This document shows, piece by piece, positions 1,682 to 15,189 of a stretch of DNA of 22,612 bases (position 1 is the stretch's first letter; every line of letters begins with the position of its first letter). This DNA comes from a virus: the IMG/VR virus record IMGVR_UViG_3300042881_002504, positions 1 through 22,612 of that record; one strand, given 5' to 3'. The notes beneath the pieces are model-generated. The model worked only from the letters and a program-made list of their open reading frames with translations. It had not been told where the DNA came from and did not search any database. Both the position numbers and the translations under genes were made by a program.

Positions 1682-2344
1682 CTACTCTGGCACATCGCTG
1701 TAGTCTATAGGCTCAGTCTTAGCTTTAGCTAGTAAAGTTTTCTTAAATTCTTGGTACTCAGCTCGTTCTTGTTTCTTGCGAGCGTCCTCTTTAGCTTTGT
1801 CTGCACTACTAGGCTTTGGCTTTGTTTCTACTAAATCTAAATTTTTATAAAACTCTAACGCGTTATTTGGATTATTAGATTTTGATCTAAGTTTAGATCT
1901 AGATCTAGATAGGTGTCCACTTTGGCCACTTGCTGTGACAAAATGGCCACTTGGAGTGACAATCTGGCCACTTCTAGTGTCCATTATGGCCACTTCGCCA
2001 GTGTTGTTAGCGCTTGAAGTGTCCACTTTGGCCACTTGGGTTTCTAGCTGTGTTTTTACACGCTGGAGGAAGTTGTCAGTTACCTTTAGCACTCTTGCCC
2101 TACCTTTTCCGCTGTGACTACCTGAAATGACGTTATCAGCTATGGAGCGGTCGATAACTCGCCTCATAGTCCGCAATGGAAGCCTTAAGTCTGCTGCCAT
2201 GGTTTCTATAGCTGCGAAACATTCCTGGCCTCCGTCGTTCCACCTGTGGATGTAATTTACTAGGGCTGCTTGATGATAGCTCAGGCCAATATCAAGATAC
2301 ACCTCAAATACTTGGCGAAAAAATCCTGGTTGTGTTAAGTTCAT
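1682..2344 (-). CDS. Replication initiator, lambda O-like winged-helix protein
   Basis: 220 aa from the ATG at 2344, chosen because AGGAAA lies 6 nt upstream; a GTG at 2380 would add 12 residues. Residues about 1-95 form a winged-helix-like domain (YLDIGLSYHQAALVNYIHRW, then a helix pair with LRLPLRTMRRVIDRSI) resembling the N-terminal DNA-binding half of phage O-type replication proteins. The middle is low complexity and coincides with the DNA iterons; the C-terminus is highly charged and probably disordered, with a possible contact surface for helicase loading. In lambda the O protein binds repeats inside its own gene and recruits the helicase loader. The same layout is seen here. No helicase-loader gene is visible in the window; it could lie off the left edge. 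Confidence 0.75.
   Translation of the reverse strand: MNLTQPGFFRQVFEVYLDIGLSYHQAALVNYIHRWNDGGQECFAAIETMAADLRLPLRTMRRVIDRSIADNVISGSHSGKGRARVLKVTDNFLQRVKTQLETQVAKVDTSSANNTGEVAIMDTRSGQIVTPSGHFVTASGQSGHLSRSRSKLRSKSNNPNNALEFYKNLDLVETKPKPSSADKAKEDARKKQERAEYQEFKKTLLAKAKTEPIDYSDVPE
1822..1850 (+). promoter_or_regulatory. Weak candidate rightward (antisense) promoter
   Basis: TTGTTT (1822-1827), 17 bp, TTATAA (1845-1850) on the plus strand, pointing through the iterons towards the terminator at 2365-2390. The area is AT-rich, so a chance match is likely. It is listed only because a rightward terminator exists with no rightward gene before it. Confidence 0.22.
1829..1912. other. AT-rich candidate DNA-unwinding region beside the iterons, with clustered GATC
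   Basis: Reading in the direction of the initiator gene, the iterons are followed by an A/T-rich stretch. It includes TAGATC tandem units and three GATC sites at 1884, 1896 and 1902. Iterons next to an AT-rich unwinding element repeat the lambda origin order. Confidence 0.5.
1913..2039. other. Candidate replication origin: five iterons inside the initiator gene
   Basis: Five copies of a 21-22 bp repeat with core TGGCCACTT begin at 1913, 1935, 1956, 1977 and 2019. Cores sit at 1923, 1944, 1965, 1987 and 2029, so spacing is 21, 21, 22 and 42 (one unit is degenerate). The flank reads GTGTCCA or GTGACAA. A spacing near two helical turns puts all sites on one DNA face, as for initiator-binding iterons. 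In the encoded protein the cores are read in two different frames (VAKVD/VAIMD against SGQIV/SGHFV/SGQSG), so conservation acts on DNA rather than protein. Confidence 0.8.
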
Positions 2345-2923: not shown

Positions 2924-3010
2924 TTAAACTTTTTTTACAAGTATATTAAAAAGTCTGTAGACACGACTCTGTAAACCATGCCAATATCTGGAAACAGGGC
3001 AATGTTGCCC
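2904..3010. promoter_or_regulatory. Candidate operators: CAGGGCAAT at 2904 and 2995, palindrome at 2997-3010
   Basis: The 9-mer CAGGGCAAT occurs at 2904-2912, inside the leftward promoter spacer, and again at 2995-3003, downstream of the rightward promoter. The second copy is part of the palindrome GGGCAA-TG-TTGCCC (2997-3010). A repeated half-site at both promoters suggests a repressor such as one of the two HTH proteins. No T-tract follows, so the palindrome is not a terminator. Confidence 0.4.
2917..2947 (+). promoter_or_regulatory. Candidate rightward early promoter sharing the -35 region
   Basis: CTGACA (2917-2922) and TATATT (2942-2947) on the plus strand, spacer 19 bp. The -35 boxes of this and the leftward promoter occupy nearly the same bases, so polymerase could bind only one at a time. 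The spacer is long; an activator may be needed. Confidence 0.4.
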
Positions 3011-3551: not shown

Positions 3552-4334
3552 ATGAGTAAAGAACTAACGGTAACAAATAATTTAGAGATGCTTAACACGT
3601 TGCGAAATACCGTGGCACCAGGGCTAACTGACCCAGAGTTTTTGTTGTTTGCTGAGATGTGCAGGGCAACCGGCCTTAATCCGGCCACAAAAGAGATTTG
3701 GGCTATCAAGGTAAATGGACGCTTGCAGCTAATGACGGGCATTAATGGCTTCTTAAAGATAGCTAATAGCCACCCTCAGTTTGATGGGATGGAAGTCACG
3801 TTTGAGTGGGAGGACAAGCATCTTATGAGTGCTACAGCTAAAGTGTACCGCAAGGATAGGCGATTCCCTAGCATAGCTACGGCGTATATGAGCGAGTACG
3901 GCAAGAAAACTGCTATATGGGCTCAGATGCCGTCGGTGATGCTTTCCAAGTGCGCGAAGGGGTTGGCGATACGAGAGGCATTTATAAACGAGCTGGGCGG
4001 CCTCTATACCCAGGAAGAGATGCCGTCAGAGTTTGCTCCGCCGAAGGCATACGAGCCGCCACCAATAGATCACACGATCCATGGTGACGTTTATGAGCCT
4101 AGACCGGCAGGAACGCCTAAGCCTAAAGCGGTAAAAACCTTTTACGATACTAGCTCACTAGATGGTGATCAGCGTTTAGCGGCTGAGAAGTATCTTAAAA
4201 CATGCCAGGCGGTGCAGATAACTGAAACAATCTGGAGAGCGCCTATCCGGCTAAACAGGTTAACCCAGTGCATAACGGAGGATGTCAAAGATGTCAGTGA
4301 AGACGAAAAGATTGTTATTGAGCAGCAAGGTTAG
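3552..4334 (+). CDS. bet: RecT/Bet-family single-strand annealing protein
   Basis: 260 aa. Phage recombinase that coats single-stranded DNA and anneals it to a complementary strand, working with a 5'-3' exonuclease. Residues about 20-155 match the RecT/lambda Bet core: LTDPEFLLFAEMCRATGLNP, TKEIWAIKVNGRLQLMTGIN, QFDGMEVTFEW, VYRKDRRFPSIATAYMSEYG, then MLSKCAKGLAIREAF and GGLYTQEEMP. The order and spacing agree with lambda Bet, and the length is similar to Bet (261 aa). The tail after residue 165 is Pro-rich and variable, as usual. AGAGGAAA precedes the ATG. Neighbours include an SSB-tailed protein and PD-(D/E)XK-type proteins that may act in the same pathway. No classic RecE or lambda Exo gene is seen. 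Confidence 0.92.
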   Translation: MSKELTVTNNLEMLNTLRNTVAPGLTDPEFLLFAEMCRATGLNPATKEIWAIKVNGRLQLMTGINGFLKIANSHPQFDGMEVTFEWEDKHLMSATAKVYRKDRRFPSIATAYMSEYGKKTAIWAQMPSVMLSKCAKGLAIREAFINELGGLYTQEEMPSEFAPPKAYEPPPIDHTIHGDVYEPRPAGTPKPKAVKTFYDTSSLDGDQRLAAEKYLKTCQAVQITETIWRAPIRLNRLTQCITEDVKDVSEDEKIVIEQQG

Positions 4335-5127: not shown

Positions 5128-5460
5128 ATGAACGAGATAACAATTAACGGCGAAACATATAGAAAAGTCCAAGAGGTGTCGATATATGCGCTAATCCGAA
5201 CTTATTCGGCTGGCGTACACTTTGGAGTAATCGTAAATCGTGAGGGCAAGGAGGTGCATCTTAGAGACGCTCGTCGCATCTGGTATTGGGAAGGCGCAGC
5301 ATCTTTGTCTCAAATGGCGGTCGATGGAGTTAGCAAGCCTGAGGAGTGTAAATTTAGCGTTACCGTCCCAGGGATTGTATTGACTGAAGCAATAGAGATA
5401 ATTCCTTGTACCGAAAAGGCTACTAAGCGCATTTTGGAGGTTCCAGAATGGAAAGCATAA
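5128..5460 (+). CDS. DUF6948-like protein
   Basis: 110 aa, with AAGGAG ahead of the ATG. The segments ALIRTYSAGVHFGVI, VHLRDARRIWYWEGAASLSQ and CKFSVTVPGIVLTEAIEIIP are the hallmark of a phage/MGE family I recall as DUF6948: a small beta-rich protein with no known activity, common near glycine-rich peptides in metagenomic phages. The stop lies 13 bp inside the next small gene, which starts at 5448, so the two are likely coupled. Confidence 0.75.
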   Translation: MNEITINGETYRKVQEVSIYALIRTYSAGVHFGVIVNREGKEVHLRDARRIWYWEGAASLSQMAVDGVSKPEECKFSVTVPGIVLTEAIEIIPCTEKATKRILEVPEWKA

Positions 5461-5576
5461 GTAATCTTTACGGCGATGGCAGAGGCGACGGTGACGGCAG
5501 CGGTGATGGCGATGGCAGCGGCTACGGCGGCGGTAGTGGCGATGGGGTAGGCAGCGGAGGCGGTACAGGGGCATGA
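5448..5576 (+). CDS. Gly-Asp-Ser-rich repeat peptide, 42 aa
   Basis: ATG at 5448 with GGAGG 7 nt upstream; TGA at 5574-5576 overlaps the next ATG (ATGA at 5573). After MESISNLY the product is a run of G-D, G-S, G-Y units, for example GDGRGDGDGSGDGDGSGYGG. Glycine is nearly half the residues. The DNA is GGY-GAY-GGC-AGC units, visibly richer in G+C than its neighbours. DxDGSG stretches recall acidic calcium-binding loops, but no full EF-hand or RTX repeat is present. Similar glycine-rich peptides beside DUF6948 are, from memory, found in other phages. The function is unknown; an unfolded or phase-separating peptide is possible. Confidence 0.7.
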   Translation: MESISNLYGDGRGDGDGSGDGDGSGYGGGSGDGVGSGGGTGA

Positions 5577-8416: not shown

Positions 8417-8762
8417 AGTTGGTGAGTTAGTGCAAGGATGGAGGTGTGCTGAGGAAAGCGTTCTCCTGCGCTTAATCAGGTAGGTGTTGCGCAACATCGT
8501 AGACGTTCGCCATTAGGAAATGGCAATACAGCAAAAATAGCTCAGCTGGTTAGAGCGAGAGATTGATAATCTTTAGGTCATTGGTTCGAGTCCAATATTT
8601 TGCCCCCGTAATGTGGATATGGGAAAACTGAAAGGAATTCCGACTATCTGAACAACGAACTGCGAAGAAGCGTATATCCGAATTGATGAACATGAGAACT
8701 GGTACTGAGTTAATTCCGAATAACCAACCTCAGGATTCCTACCTTGCATTAACTCACCAACT
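8417..8762 (+). ncRNA. Candidate structured RNA closed by a 21-bp stem and containing a tRNA
   Basis: 8417-8437 pairs with 8742-8762 without interruption: 20 Watson-Crick pairs and one G-U. Inside lie hairpin 8440-8466 (about 10 bp, loop GAGGAA), hairpin 8483-8498 (GGTGTT/AACATC, loop GCGC), perfect hairpin 8509-8524 (GCCATT/AATGGC, loop AGGA), the whole tRNA-Ile (8531-8604), a stem 8615-8620/8674-8679, and AGGAAT (8633-8638) with ATTCCT (8735-8740) near the closing stem. No credible protein gene lies here. The 3' strand ends two bases before tRNA-Ser, whose 5' processing would free the RNA. Large phage RNAs near tRNAs (GOLLD, ROOL) are known; this is shorter and I cannot match it to them. 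Confidence 0.7.
8531..8604 (+). tRNA. tRNA-Ile (GAT), without encoded CCA
   Basis: Cloverleaf read by eye: acceptor 8531-8537 with 8597-8603 (six pairs, the seventh is A-A), D arm GCTC/GAGC, anticodon stem AGAGA/TCTTT with loop TTGATAA (anticodon GAT at 8565-8567), variable loop AGGTC, T arm ATTGG-TTCGAGT-CCAAT. The discriminator is C (8604), followed by CCC rather than CCA; bacterial tRNA-Ile normally has A73. It sits inside the long-stem RNA. Confidence 0.85.
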
Positions 8763-8764
8763 AC

Positions 8765-8850
8765 GGAAGAGTGGATGAGCGGTTTAAATCACCTCACTGC
8801 TAACGAGGAGTGTTTCGGCACCGCAGGTTCGAATCCTGCCTCTTCCGCCA
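8765..8850 (+). tRNA. tRNA-Ser (GCT), CCA encoded
   Basis: Acceptor GGAAGAG (8765-8771) with CTCTTCC (8840-8846), discriminator G, CCA at 8848-8850. Anticodon loop CTGCTAA gives anticodon GCT, reading AGC/AGT. There is a long variable arm (GTG-CAC pairing), as required for Ser tRNAs, and T arm GCAGG-TTCGAAT-CCTGC. One A-C mismatch closes the anticodon stem. Looks functional. Confidence 0.92.
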
Positions 8851-8859
8851 ACAGGTTTC

Positions 8860-8927
8860 GGGCTGTAAGTGGAGATTTAACAACCTCCTCCAAAGAGACA
8901 TCCTCTCTGCTTACGGCCCACTTTTTT
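8860..8927 (+). terminator. Intrinsic terminator after the RNA segment
   Basis: GGGCTGTAAG (8860-8869) pairs with CTTACGGCCC (8910-8919), ten pairs including one G-U, with an inner AGAG/CTCT hairpin in the 40-nt loop, then A-C and six T (8922-8927). The ribosome binding site of the next gene starts right after the T-tract, so downstream expression needs read-through. Confidence 0.7.
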
Positions 8928-8937
8928 AAGGTAAGCA

Positions 8938-9219
8938 ATGGATACTGTAGACCTAGAAAAGTTAATAGCGCAGATGTTTCCTTTGTCCATGTTCGGGCAT
9001 GGGGAGCACCTAGAAACAGCTATTAAGGCTTACGCACAGGGCTTTAAAGATGCCTACGCTAAGAACGCAGATAATGTTACAATCAATGTCGTGAGAGGCC
9101 AGACGGCTAGAGAGTTGTTACTAAATAAAATTCTGCAAGGAGATAATCGTGCCACTAACAAAGAAGGGACTACGGATTCGTCAAGCGATGGAGAAGTATT
9201 ACGGGAAGGAGAAAGGTGA
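8938..9219 (+). CDS. Unknown 93-aa protein
   Basis: ATG at 8938 with AAGG 6 nt upstream, immediately after the terminator T-tract. Residues 1-60 look like a folded helical domain (MDTVDLEKLIAQMFPLSMFG, LETAIKAYAQGFKDAYAKNA, then a short strand VTINVV). The last 24 residues are Ser/Thr/Glu-rich and overlap the next gene by 71 bp, so this end may be tolerated rather than selected. No recognised family. Confidence 0.5.
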   Translation: MDTVDLEKLIAQMFPLSMFGHGEHLETAIKAYAQGFKDAYAKNADNVTINVVRGQTARELLLNKILQGDNRATNKEGTTDSSSDGEVLREGER

Positions 9220-9298
9220 GGACGTGTTCTACGCAAGCGAGAACAAAGGCACCATTAAAGGCGTGAAGAAGAAAAAGAAGAAGTCCAGTGGTAAATAG
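9149..9298 (+). CDS. Short basic phage protein (MPLTKKG family)
   Basis: GTG start at 9149 with a perfect AAGGAG 6 nt upstream; TAG at 9296-9298. The 49-aa product starts MPLTKKGLRIRQAMEKYYGK, continues with DVFYASENKGTIKGV and ends in a lysine-rich tail. I recognise this as a very common small phage protein, often near terminase or resolvase genes, with no known activity; the lysine tail suggests nucleic-acid contact. It overlaps the preceding and following genes. Confidence 0.7.
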   Translation: MPLTKKGLRIRQAMEKYYGKEKGEDVFYASENKGTIKGVKKKKKKSSGK

Positions 9299-9620
9299 TA
9301 GAGCCAAGGGCGCATCAGGCGAGCGAGAGCTGGCAAACAAACTAAAAGAGCATGGCTTTACTGCCAGGAGAACTCAACAGTTCTGCGGCAAGGCTGGCGA
9401 CTCTGATGTAGTATGCGAAGAGCTTGATAGCTATCATATAGAGGTTAAGCGAGTACAGAACCTTAACGTGGATAAGGCTATAGACCAAGCAACAAGAGAT
9501 TGCGGTGACAAAACTCCAATAGTATGCCATCGTAAGAATAACCGGCCTTGGCTGGTAACTATGTATATCGAGGACTTTTTAGCCTTGGTTCAATGCAAGA
9601 CGAGACCCCCATTAAGCTAA
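9288..9620 (+). CDS. Holliday-junction-resolvase-like PD-(D/E)XK nuclease
   Basis: 110 aa, GTG start at 9288 inside the end of the previous gene. The N-terminal pattern SRAKGASGERELANKLKEHG and the core Glu12, Asp40 and E52-V53-K54 (YHIEVKRVQN) give a complete PD-(D/E)XK metal-dependent nuclease site, followed by QATRDCGDKTPIVCHRKNN and a strand WLVTMY. Such proteins are usually called phage Holliday junction resolvases: they cut branched DNA made in recombination or replication before packaging. This fits the annealing-recombination set upstream. A general endonuclease role cannot be excluded. Confidence 0.78.
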   Translation: MVNSRAKGASGERELANKLKEHGFTARRTQQFCGKAGDSDVVCEELDSYHIEVKRVQNLNVDKAIDQATRDCGDKTPIVCHRKNNRPWLVTMYIEDFLALVQCKTRPPLS

Positions 9621-9913
9621 GTGAACTAACAATGGAAGAGTCCAAAGGGCATATTTGCCCTGAATACATCTTATGGCTTGCAGTTATTGATAGGGCTATC
9701 TCTGACCTATGCTCCCCAGCTCAAGAGCTAACGCCGCTTTATGCAGCAGATTTACATGGCTTCTTTTGGGAGAATATCCCAAGGCAGTATAACCTAGTCT
9801 ATATTTGCTCAATGCTGTTAGATAGGGAAGACGCCGTCGAAAAGATACGGCATAGAATTAAAACGATAGGACGGACTAAAAAGCCACAGTCCTACCGCTC
9901 CAGCAGAACCTAG
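9593..9913 (+). CDS. Unknown helical protein, end of the rightward operon
   Basis: 106 aa from the ATG at 9593 (28 bp overlap with the resolvase). An upstream ATG at 9548 would give a longer overlap, and none has a clear ribosome binding site. The sequence PEYILWLAVIDRAISDLCSP, FFWENIPRQYNLVYICSMLL and VEKIRHRIKTI resembles a widespread small phage protein with the order 'LW-AV-EQA-D ... W ... F-x-x-VC ... IR', of unknown role. Its TAG stop shares the self-complementary CTAG (9910-9913) with the stop of the opposing holin gene. Confidence 0.6.
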   Translation: MQDETPIKLSELTMEESKGHICPEYILWLAVIDRAISDLCSPAQELTPLYAADLHGFFWENIPRQYNLVYICSMLLDREDAVEKIRHRIKTIGRTKKPQSYRSSRT

Positions 9914-11517: not shown

Positions 11518-12488
11518 GGTAGTACAGTAGTAGCTGATAACTGATTCTCTAGCGCTGTTACCTTGGCGTTTAGCTCTTGAATAGCTTTTATAAGTAACGC
11601 TGTCATATTGCCATAACTAATAGCGTCAGGGCTTTCATCTGGCGCATATTGAACAAACTCAGACAATCCTATGGCATGAAGTTGCTCTGCTATCAATCCG
11701 GCAAAAACGTGGTCGCCATTATTTGTCGCTTTATAATACTTTGGCTGAATCTGAAGAACTTCTGCTAGACCTTTGTCGTAATCAACAACATCCGTTTTGT
11801 ATTTTAAAGATGAAGTAGAGCGAAATAATTCCCCGTTGGAATTGACATACATATTAGCGCCAATACCTGTTGTAAGATTATAAGGAGAACTTGCTTTGGC
11901 TCCGGTACTAATCAATCCATCATCACGAACAAGAAAAGCGGTATTGCCAGCGCTATCGACGCACAAAAAGCTATTCGTAGAAGAAGTTGTTCCCGCTCCT
12001 TGAGTCGTCAGTTGATAATTTAAAATAGGATTACGTCCTATTGCAATTTCGCCGGTATTAGCAATAACCATACGTTCAAGGTTATTTGTCCAAAGTCGTA
12101 ACGGCCCATTGGCACGATTGGCAACAAAAGTTTGCAATCCATCAGTTGTCTGCAAAATTATAAATTCATTAGCGGCACTGTTTCCATTCCCACGCAAGGA
12201 TAGTGCCGCTCCAGCACCGCCAGCGGCTACTGCTGTTAAAAGCTCTGTCGGGGTAGTAGTTCCAATCGCTACCTTAGCAGCATTAATAACGTTCTGCCCA
12301 CCGGCATTAAATGGTCCAGTCATTGAGTTAGAACCATCTTTGTTAATGCACTGATTAATACCAGTAGCAAAGTCATTGTCTTGGGTATCATGCCGACCAG
12401 CTTCTATACCTATACCAGACGAAGCATCACCAGCCCAGCCGCCTGTACCTGCATTGCCCTTTGTGTAAGACCCTCCGCTCCAGCCCAT
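11514..12488 (-). CDS. Tail fibre/spike protein with S74 intramolecular chaperone
   Basis: 324 aa. The N-terminus (MGWSGGSYTKGNAGTGGW, GIGIEAGRHDTQDNDFATGI, NQCINKDG) is the virion-attachment module seen in many podovirus fibres. The middle is beta-rich, with repeats of short strands (AIGTTTP, AIGRNPIL). From about residue 225 the Peptidase_S74 domain follows: STSSLKYKTDVVDYDKG, LQIQPKYYKAT, HVFAGLIAEQLHAIGLSEFV and a final coiled coil AIQELNAKVTALENQL. In this family the C-terminal domain trimerises the fibre and then cuts itself off with a Ser-Lys pair; the Ser of SSLKYK is the likely site. The receptor-binding part is short here. Confidence 0.88.
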   Translation of the reverse strand: MGWSGGSYTKGNAGTGGWAGDASSGIGIEAGRHDTQDNDFATGINQCINKDGSNSMTGPFNAGGQNVINAAKVAIGTTTPTELLTAVAAGGAGAALSLRGNGNSAANEFIILQTTDGLQTFVANRANGPLRLWTNNLERMVIANTGEIAIGRNPILNYQLTTQGAGTTSSTNSFLCVDSAGNTAFLVRDDGLISTGAKASSPYNLTTGIGANMYVNSNGELFRSTSSLKYKTDVVDYDKGLAEVLQIQPKYYKATNNGDHVFAGLIAEQLHAIGLSEFVQYAPDESPDAISYGNMTALLIKAIQELNAKVTALENQLSATTVLP

Positions 12489-12489
12489 A

Positions 12490-15189
12490 TTATGCCTCTA
12501 CTAAATTATTTAACTTTTCTAAATTATTTAAAACTTTTGTAACATACAAATATGTTTCTTCAGGAACTCCATAGCGACTATTTTTAGGCGCTCCTGCACG
12601 TTCTTTAATTTTAGAGTTTTGTTTGTATTTTACACCAAGTCGTTTAACTATTGTTTCCCAATCGTTGCTTTTAGCATCCGATATAGCAGACCTAATACTA
12701 CCTGGTCCCCAGTTGTATGCCGCTAATCCTAGCTTAACATCATCAAACGCATTGATTTGTTGTTGAAGATACTTACTACCACCTTCTACGTTTTGTTGTG
12801 GATCGGACGGGTCTACTCCTAACATTTTAGCCGTAGCTGGCATAAGCTGCATTAGCCCACTAGCGCCCTTAGAACTTACAGCGTAAGGATTACCAGCCGA
12901 TTCTACTTGCATTACAGCTTTAACAAGATTAACCGGAGCAAACCCTTCACCTGTTGGAATGCTTATATTTTGCTTGCCTACCTTTATTTCTTGCTTTTCT
13001 GAAGGGATAGGTTTTACCGGTTGTACTGGCTCTTCTTGTCCTAATGCTTTTAGGATTTCTTCATCTGTATAATTAGAGTCGGCTAATTCAGAAGTCAAAG
13101 ACGCAGTTCCGATTGCGCCCATGCCAAGCTGCTTGCTTCGCTTTGCTTTGAGCTGCTCTTGCATAATATCTAAGCCCGCCGCTGTTTCTCGTCCTGCGGC
13201 TGCTCCTGCAACTCCACCAGCTTTCTCTCCAGCTTGCCTCGCGCCACGCAATGCAGAAGTTAGTTGGCTAATACGTCCAAGCGTTTCTAATCCTTGCTCA
13301 GGCTCTCTAAATAATAGCTGTGCATAGTTTTTGTAAAATTCATCATCTTGGCGCCCACCAAGCATTTTAGACAACAACTTACCAGCAGCTCCTACAGGGT
13401 CTTTTCCAGCTTGTATTGCGCTTCTAATAGCTCCAAAGCTTTCCCCTAATGCTTCTTCTGCTTGTCTTAATGGAGTAGTAGGCGATCCCGCAAAATACTC
13501 TCTTTGCCCTTTTAAAATGTTTTGCTCTATTGTCAGAGGCTCAATAACAGAGTCATATTTATCACCAAGAGCTGCACGTAGTTTATTACGTAGATCTGGC
13601 GAGCCAATAATTTTATTTATTGGATTTCTTTCATCCTGTGCTTTTTCTACCGATCTTTGTAAATACGCGCGAACTCCCGACTCCCACTCGTCAAGTTTGC
13701 CAGCAGCAACAAAGTCATCCCTAAGGCTCGAAATAACATCAGCATCAAGAGCAAACACTCTGCCGATAGTCTCTGGTCTATCAGGGCTTACATTAGCCAA
13801 AAAGCCTATTTTACTTTGCTCTTTAGCCGTTAAGCCTTTAGACATTTGCGCAAAGGTATTAGTAGCTTGTGCGTAATCAGGCGATTCTTCTTTAATTGCT
13901 TTCATTAAAGCATTACGAGCGTCAGTAACTTTGCCAGCAGTAAACTTATTATCTAACGATCTGGCCTTTCCACTTAAATACTGTTGCGCCTGATGCAGTA
14001 CTTCTAAACTTGTATCTGATTTCTCCGCAAGCTCAGGGAGTTCTTTTCTTACGGCCTTAATAGCTTGTTGGATGCGAGGATTTGTCTGTACTAACTTAAC
14101 GGCACTTTCTGTTGTTAATTCTGGAGTGCGTTCAAATGCGGCTTCGTAAAGCCCTCTTGTAGCTTCTTTTCTAGCGACTCCCAACTCATCAAGTAAAGAT
14201 TTTGCACCTTCTACAAGCTTATTAGCTCCAGCGTTTACGTTACGAACTGGCGCAACTTTATCTAGTGTTTCGGTAATGCGATTAACTGCATTTGCTGCAC
14301 GTTCTTCAATAGCCGTCTTAGCTACTTCAATAGAAGCTGGATAGTTAGCAATTAATTTAGCTTGTTGATATAAAGCAGGAGAGCCTACAGCTTCGGGAAT
14401 AAATACAGGTTTGCCAAGCTCTCCAGCTCTTTGTAACGCTACTTCTGCGTTTGGTATAGTTTCTGGAGCTGTTTGCGATAATATTTTAGCAAGCTGAATT
14501 TCTTCAGGTGTATATTTTGCGCCACCTAATGTAATAGCGCCACGTTCGCTTCCTGCTGTTGTGCCAGCACGAGCCAATACGCCGCCTAATGTTTCGGTAG
14601 CATATTGAGCAGCCTTGCCAATTACAGGGCCAGCAACGGCACCAGTACCGCCGCCCATAAGCCCACCAGCTAACCGGTCTCCTGGTTGAGCAGACGCCGC
14701 CCCATAAATACCGCCTTGAGCAGCGCCAATAGCCGCAAGTTCTGCTACAGTTGGGGCCGCTTTTCCAGTTGCTCCTAATAACAATCTTGAAGCAAGTCCA
14801 GGAGCTGCCATTGTAGCCGCTGGAATAGTTCCTGCTATACCACCAACAAGTTCAGATGCTAATGCAGTCCCAGGATAAGCAGAACGCATTGCCTCTCGTT
14901 CTGCTTGTTGTGCAGCGAGCTGCTCTGAATATGAAGGGCCACCAGTAAGAGCACTCAATCCCGCCAGAGCTTCGTCGGCTAGCCCTAAAGTTAATCCTTG
15001 CCCGCCAAAAGATAGCGCCGTCCCTAGTCGTCCGTATAAATCAACATCACTTTGAGCTTTTTGCACCGCTTGACGAGCAGCAGCAAACTCTGCGGCTTTA
15101 TCCGCAGGAATAGTTGGCGTCGAAGCGGTCGGCGCACTTATTCCTAATGCTTGCAATACTTCTGCGTCTGAGTAGGCGTTCTCGTCCAT
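12490..15189 (-). CDS. Internal virion/ejection protein with lytic transglycosylase domain
   Basis: 899 aa. Residues about 745-850 form a soluble lytic transglycosylase (SLT) domain: catalytic Glu763 in AVMQVESAGNP, then SSKGASGLMQLMPATAK, GGSKYLQQQI and LGLAAYNWGPG. It would cut peptidoglycan locally during DNA entry. The N-terminal part has Ala/Gly-rich hydrophobic stretches at about 100-200, typical of ejection proteins that cross membranes, followed by a long helical middle. The segment Y-[ST]-D-x-E-[IV]-L-x-A-L-G appears at residues 6-16 and again at 707-717. The size, position and domain resemble the large T7 gp16-like internal proteins. It is joined to the upstream gene by TAATG. Confidence 0.85.
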   Translation of the reverse strand: MDENAYSDAEVLQALGISAPTASTPTIPADKAAEFAAARQAVQKAQSDVDLYGRLGTALSFGGQGLTLGLADEALAGLSALTGGPSYSEQLAAQQAEREAMRSAYPGTALASELVGGIAGTIPAATMAAPGLASRLLLGATGKAAPTVAELAAIGAAQGGIYGAASAQPGDRLAGGLMGGGTGAVAGPVIGKAAQYATETLGGVLARAGTTAGSERGAITLGGAKYTPEEIQLAKILSQTAPETIPNAEVALQRAGELGKPVFIPEAVGSPALYQQAKLIANYPASIEVAKTAIEERAANAVNRITETLDKVAPVRNVNAGANKLVEGAKSLLDELGVARKEATRGLYEAAFERTPELTTESAVKLVQTNPRIQQAIKAVRKELPELAEKSDTSLEVLHQAQQYLSGKARSLDNKFTAGKVTDARNALMKAIKEESPDYAQATNTFAQMSKGLTAKEQSKIGFLANVSPDRPETIGRVFALDADVISSLRDDFVAAGKLDEWESGVRAYLQRSVEKAQDERNPINKIIGSPDLRNKLRAALGDKYDSVIEPLTIEQNILKGQREYFAGSPTTPLRQAEEALGESFGAIRSAIQAGKDPVGAAGKLLSKMLGGRQDDEFYKNYAQLLFREPEQGLETLGRISQLTSALRGARQAGEKAGGVAGAAAGRETAAGLDIMQEQLKAKRSKQLGMGAIGTASLTSELADSNYTDEEILKALGQEEPVQPVKPIPSEKQEIKVGKQNISIPTGEGFAPVNLVKAVMQVESAGNPYAVSSKGASGLMQLMPATAKMLGVDPSDPQQNVEGGSKYLQQQINAFDDVKLGLAAYNWGPGSIRSAISDAKSNDWETIVKRLGVKYKQNSKIKERAGAPKNSRYGVPEETYLYVTKVLNNLEKLNNLVEA

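Follow-up and report, generated by a model that had tools for sequence, protein, structure and literature searches.

A repeat array inside the gene of a probable phage replication initiator in an IMG/VR virus record

The window analyzed here is the whole 22,612-nucleotide (nt) stretch of IMG/VR virus record IMGVR_UViG_3300042881_002504 (positions 1 to 22,612), and the subject is a minus-strand gene at 1682-2344 that contains an array of five repeats. The 220-amino-acid (aa) product of this gene is very probably a phage replication initiator, with the origin located in the stretch of its own gene that encodes the linker. The repeats, their conservation at the DNA level, the unstable DNA beside them and the fact that N-terminal domain, repeats and flank are inherited together, independent of the C-terminus, were observed directly. 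Binding of the putative initiator to its own gene is supported by the constraint on the array, the size of the dyads, the unstable flank and a natural domain swap.

The steps that we infer, from binding and dimerisation through opening and recruitment to replication, would run as follows. The N-terminal winged-helix domain would bind the five repeats (1912-2036), probably with one dimer per full 19-base-pair (bp) dyad; the bound array would strain and open the adjoining AT-rich DNA (about 1802-1911); and the C-terminal region would then recruit host helicase or primase machinery. The features involved are these:

1682-2344, minus strand: initiator gene, 220 aa, ATG at 2344 (open reading frame, ORF, call)
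2036-2344, minus strand: N-terminal winged-helix domain, residues 1-103, predicted to bind the repeats (AlphaFold2, AF2, model and structure matches)
2018-2036, minus strand: repeat 1, AGTGGCCA-AAG-TGGACACT, dyad 7/8, phase 2 (VAKVDT)
1995-2017, minus strand: spacer of conserved length, with 18 nt unrelated in the relatives L002/L003 (codon alignment)
1976-1994, minus strand: repeat 2, AGTGGCCA-TAA-TGGACACT, dyad 7/8, phase 2 (VAIMDT)
1955-1972, minus strand: repeat 3, weaker dyad AGTGGCCA-GAT-TGTCACT, phase 0 (SGQIVT)
1934-1951, minus strand: repeat 4, weaker dyad AGTGGCCA-TTT-TGTCACA, phase 0 (SGHFVT)
1912-1930, minus strand: repeat 5, AGTGGCCA-AAG-TGGACACC, dyad 6/8, phase 0 (SGQSGHL)
1802-1911: AT-rich flank, 72% AT, opening with ATCTAG hexamers; candidate unwinding element
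1685-1828, minus strand: C-terminal region, predicted replisome-recruiting part (alignments)

The repeat array and the constraint on its DNA

The exact core TGGCCACTT occurs five times on the plus strand, starting at 1923, 1944, 1965, 1987 and 2029, with core-to-core steps of 21, 21, 22 and 42 bp. The original prediction, made from the sequence alone, had described five 21-22 bp repeats; the five exact cores and the first three steps agree with this, but the fifth copy lies two steps off, and no sixth copy was seen inside the 42-bp gap. On the coding strand, each repeat takes the form AGTGGCCAnnnTGGACACT or a weaker version of it, and every unit begins with AGTGGCCA. When up to one mismatch was allowed, there were 12 matches in the window, 9 of them within 1914-2037 (shuffling expects 5.4 for the whole window). 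Repeats 1, 2 and 5 are 19-bp inverted repeats (8-3-8), a dyad size such that a winged-helix dimer could cover it, and repeats 3 and 4 are weaker 18-bp forms. The array sits in coding sequence between two protein domains, and the predicted reading of the repeats in two frames was borne out: AGTGGCCA starts at nt 309 and 351 of the gene in repeats 1 and 2 (phase 2), and at nt 373, 394 and 415 in repeats 3-5 (phase 0). Repeats 1 and 5 are nearly identical as DNA, yet encode VAKVDT and SGQSGHL, respectively.

Selection on the protein is insufficient to account for the array, as had also been claimed. When the same protein was recoded with synonymous codons drawn from the usage of 20 window ORFs, AGTGGCCA was counted 0, 1, 2 or 3 times in 15,485, 4,082, 415 and 18 of 20,000 recodings, respectively, never reaching the five copies observed; no exact repeat longer than 15 nt arose in 5,000 recodings, and the gene has one of 20 nt.

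Five contigs were recovered when 2.9 million viral contigs were searched with the protein (by locus name, L001/L013/L024, L002/L012/L025, L003/L010, L004/L009/L026 and L005/L011/L023). A DNA-pattern scan of viral_contigs for two neighbouring repeats returned the same five; because the pattern had been built on these very sequences, this result indicates specificity, not independence. We then compared the share of same-residue codons that are identical in the array and in the N-terminal domain. Between the window and L002, this share was 35/35 in the array vs. 45/87 in the N-terminal domain (p = 1.3 × 10−8); for the other pairs, the respective values were 35/35 vs. 38/84 (window and L003), 27/27 vs. 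39/85 (window and L004) and 19/21 vs. 50/85 (window and L011, p = 0.0044). Two further relatives with a second type of repeat, L042 and L045, gave 21/24 vs. 23/61 (p = 2.6 × 10−5). L002, L003 and L004 differ too little from one another for the comparison to be informative (p = 0.06 to 1). Between repeats 1 and 2, the 18-nt spacer has changed in sequence at a fixed length; thus, the constraint is on the repeats, not on the whole stretch. In repeat 2 of L011, the protein sequence is altered and the half-site pattern AGTG[GT]CCA is retained. The repeats are real and under constraint at the DNA level.

These comparisons bear on two rival explanations. The repeats could be functionless products of tandem slippage in a sequence-tolerant linker, which would fit the low-complexity linker and the variable copy number (five in the window, L002 and L003; four in L004 and L011). 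This is very improbable given that array codons are identical among relatives that differ at about half of the synonymous codons elsewhere, that the 18-nt spacer has diverged, and that the same conservation pattern recurs in the unrelated second repeat family. Alternatively, recombination might have spread the array recently, so that its conservation would reflect exchange rather than constraint; indeed, the gene is mosaic, with swapped C-termini and breakpoints nearby. However, the repeats are identical on either side of a diverged spacer of equal length, L011 repeat 2 kept its half-site pattern through a change of the protein, and the conservation is seen again in L042/L045, which makes such an exchange hardly credible.

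Repeat type and N-terminal domain among relatives

Seven genes were counted (window, L002, L003, L004, L011, L042 and L045), with L001, the protein of which is 100% identical, excluded. The original prediction depended on related phages carrying repeats at this place, and all seven genes (7/7) do so, with two sequence types. The sixth contig, L042, was found with the C-terminal domain of L002-L004 as the query and had been missed by searches with the first-type N-terminal domain. It retains the C-terminal domain of L002-L004 (91% over 78 residues), and its N-terminal domain is a different winged-helix domain. The second repeat type in this contig is a 19-bp palindromic CTGTATCAnnnTGATACAG; the array holds five copies of CTGTATCA in two codon phases, with three copies of the full 8-3-8 dyad (8, 7 and 7 of 8 paired), and the AT-rich flank differs in sequence from that of L002-L004. 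The DNA similarity between L042 and L025 ends at L042 position 3402 and restarts at 4010, just beyond the AT-rich flank. By this DNA comparison, N-terminal domain, repeats and AT-rich flank were exchanged as one block, which is the strongest evidence for an initiator with the origin in its own gene. In L045, a second-type N-terminal domain and four copies of the second repeat are joined to yet another C-terminus. Thus, in 7/7 genes, the repeat type goes with the N-terminal domain, independent of the C-terminus.

The order of sites is common to both repeat families: one or more full dyads come first, two weak or half sites follow, and another full dyad precedes the unstable DNA. A common layout in two unrelated repeat families is suggestive of initiator assembly by geometry rather than by sequence, and it is less ordinary than the reading in two frames. 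Tentatively, and with the odds against it, one might envisage an orisome of fixed geometry, with the outer sites occupied by dimers and each of the inner two bound on one side only, in which specificity domain, repeats and unwinding element would travel together, as a single cassette, from one C-terminal partner to another.

No relatives were found in cellular genomes, either by protein search or by DNA pattern. Cultured phages and plasmids yielded no significant relative of the window protein, and cultured phages yielded none of the L042 protein.

The binder of the repeats could be a protein of the host or a different phage protein, instead of the N-terminal domain. A two-gene cassette at 2396-2864 on the minus strand, 5' of the initiator gene, goes with the first repeat type in the window and L023. 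This cassette, encoding a 93-aa protein and an HTH_17 protein, is present in the window, L024 and L023; however, it is absent from L025, L026, L042 and L045, and L025 and L026 still carry first-type repeats. An XRE protein is common to both repeat types, and, of the contigs searched, L024 and L023 alone have a methyltransferase. Some of the contigs in this comparison are short, L010 starting 152 bp before the gene. As far as these sequences indicate, the N-terminal domain is the sole tested factor that tracks the repeat type, and with a match in all seven genes, a different binder appears improbable.

Near the initiator gene, L011 also carries a DNA polymerase processivity factor-like gene (8488-9072, minus strand; phrog_947, E = 1.1 × 10−4; Pfam beta-clamp below cut-off) and a gene whose small product weakly matches the DnaJ domain (9133-9624, minus strand; E = 0.0014, below cut-off). 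Initiation in phage lambda uses the host DnaJ. Elsewhere in the window, a 42-codon frame at 5448-5576 on the plus strand encodes mostly Gly, Asp and Ser and overlaps the end of the gene at 5128-5460.

The protein, the AT-rich flank and the points against an origin

For the initiator gene, the ORF list gives an earlier GTG start; the ATG at 2344 was taken, as in the relatives. The window protein matches the 'replication initiation protein' families phrog_6643, phrog_270 and phrog_428 with E values of 0.0014-0.016, and relatives match a replication-initiation family (L042, E = 1 × 10−10; L045, E = 3 × 10−10). The family phrog_391, 'replication initiation O-like', was matched by 4 of 5 members with a best E of 0.002, and the O-like matches of L042 and L045 have E values of 4.5 × 10−4 and 4.7 × 10−8, respectively. 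The N-terminal domain of the window protein is distantly related to that of L042 (24% identity, E = 8 × 10−4 for that single comparison). For the Pfam family HTH_36, the window protein scores 15.5 bits, below the gathering cut-off of 25, and the distant relatives L042 (37.3) and L045 (40) score above it. The C-terminal region of the window protein is of a type that none of L002-L004, L011, L042 and L045 shares, judging by alignments.

The AF2 model of residues 1-109 is a winged helix (predicted local distance difference test, pLDDT, 80.1; predicted template modelling score, pTM, 0.76). It was taken in place of the full-length model, which is of low confidence (pLDDT 57.7) and the structure search of which was not used. 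DNA-bound MarR-type repressors and the DnaD N-terminal domain are among the top structure matches; because the VIA-align ranks of these matches are bunched at Z 8.5-10.6, only the general winged-helix fold is claimed. No solved structure matching the window protein by sequence was found.

The 40-bp stability minimum of the flank lies at 1871-1910, with 0.12% of window positions less stable than this. Nearest-neighbour stability is lower than after repeat 5 at 0.09-0.14% of window positions and at 0-1.2% of positions in L023-L026. Among 112-bp stretches, 0.4-0.8% are equally unstable in the window, 0.35-3.7% in L042 and 1.1-5.6% in L045. The flank sequence differs between repeat types, and the position and orientation are alike. 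The stability minimum for the window as a whole lies at about 12487-12600, on the border of two late-cluster genes. Clustering of Dam-type GATC sites was considered as a general feature of the flanks and rejected, as it is not common to all of them: per 110 bp of flank, there are three in the window (clustered at 1884-1905), one each in L025, L010 and L026, and five each in L023, L042 and L045.

The resemblance of the winged-helix domain to MarR-type repressors would also be expected if the repeats were operators, through which the initiator or another phage regulator controls how this gene is transcribed, and played no part as an origin. The array is touched by three promoter-like matches, although the number in the region, 5 against an expected 2.9, is close to background. 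However, the array lies about 310 bp inside the coding sequence, away from the promoter, and the five relative contigs contain no further repeat copy (20/20 matches are in arrays). Regulation alone does not predict that an unstable flank is swapped within the same block, and the relatives match replication-initiation families. An operator role thus has only a small chance of being the explanation, and we retain an initiator with its origin in its own gene.

Several observations weigh against that interpretation. Five independent lineages, three with the first repeat type (window/L001, L002-L004 and L011) and two with the second, are few to base a rule on. The window protein itself has weak family matches (best E = 0.0014), and comparison by hhalign with the N-terminal domains of six lambda-O-type proteins was unsupportive (probability 0.4%, E = 0.15). 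No helicase loader (P or DnaC-like) was recognised among the ORFs scanned, a subset of all ORFs. At 40 bp, the instability is weaker in the second type, with 3.7% of stretches as unstable in L042 and 5.6% in L045. No DnaA-box-like sites were found near the window array, and near-matches to the DnaA box were present only in L026 (one) and L023 (two). The GC-skew switch expected at the array is absent: in this half of the window, the cumulative curve reaches its minimum near 3,000, the point at which the genes change orientation. GC skew follows gene direction, and is therefore uninformative.

Comparison with known systems

The lambda origin lies in the middle of gene O, with 19-bp imperfect inverted-repeat iterons bound by O dimers and a flanking AT-rich tract (PMC7466680, PMC5043065, PMC6022878); the N-terminal domain of O is suggested to bind DNA and the C-terminal domain to bind P, with a linker between them (PMC6022878). 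The window shares the probable origin within the initiator gene, the 19-bp inverted-repeat iterons, the AT-rich flank and the two domains with a linker. It differs in repeat sequence, in its shorter protein and in showing no significant N-terminal similarity; nor was a P-like helicase loader recognised downstream in the window, among the part of the ORFs that were scanned. The original label 'lambda-O-like' is apt for the architecture, but direct profile comparison with lambda O gave no significant match.

The reading of repeats in two frames was rejected as a unique feature. Phases were compared in seven genes, from annotated iterons for lambda and from a crude k-mer scan for the others. The four annotated lambda iterons occupy codon phases 0, 2, 2 and 1, that is, three phases, so the two-frame reading is ordinary. 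The phases were 2, 1, 1, 1 in Bas106, 0, 0, 0, 0 in LV-2017 and 1, 0, 0 in P22 (short, loose match); MPK9 has three scattered 10-mers, probably by chance, and the scan found no repeats in BUCT566 and SEN22.

Among plasmids, the staphylococcal pSK41 is described as having a Rep with an N-terminal domain that binds four Rep boxes located midway along rep, an origin-encoded linker and a marked primase-interaction domain; the hybrid Rep of pPR9 is described as a modular initiator with an N-terminal putative helix-turn-helix of pfam13730 (HTH_36) (PMC5703833). On that account, the modular initiator and the probable mid-gene origin are alike, and L042 and L045 match the HTH_36 family above cut-off. 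Unlike the window, these are plasmids of Gram-positive hosts, with a RepA_N domain in pSK41, and the likeness is drawn apart from repeat sequence. In PLE satellites, the N-terminal domain of RepA varies together with the origin and the C-terminus is conserved; pairs replicate only when they are cognate (PMC8263062). There, unlike in the window, the origin lies in a noncoding region outside the gene, and the domain is of RepA_N type.

The window supplies a probable origin and initiator for a phage group without a significant initiator relative in the cultured-phage collection, and the natural domain swap predicts which half of the protein sets origin specificity. Since this type of system is familiar, an example is added rather than a new principle: phage lambda and some plasmids have long been known to carry an origin within the initiator gene, and the window is very probably a new instance.
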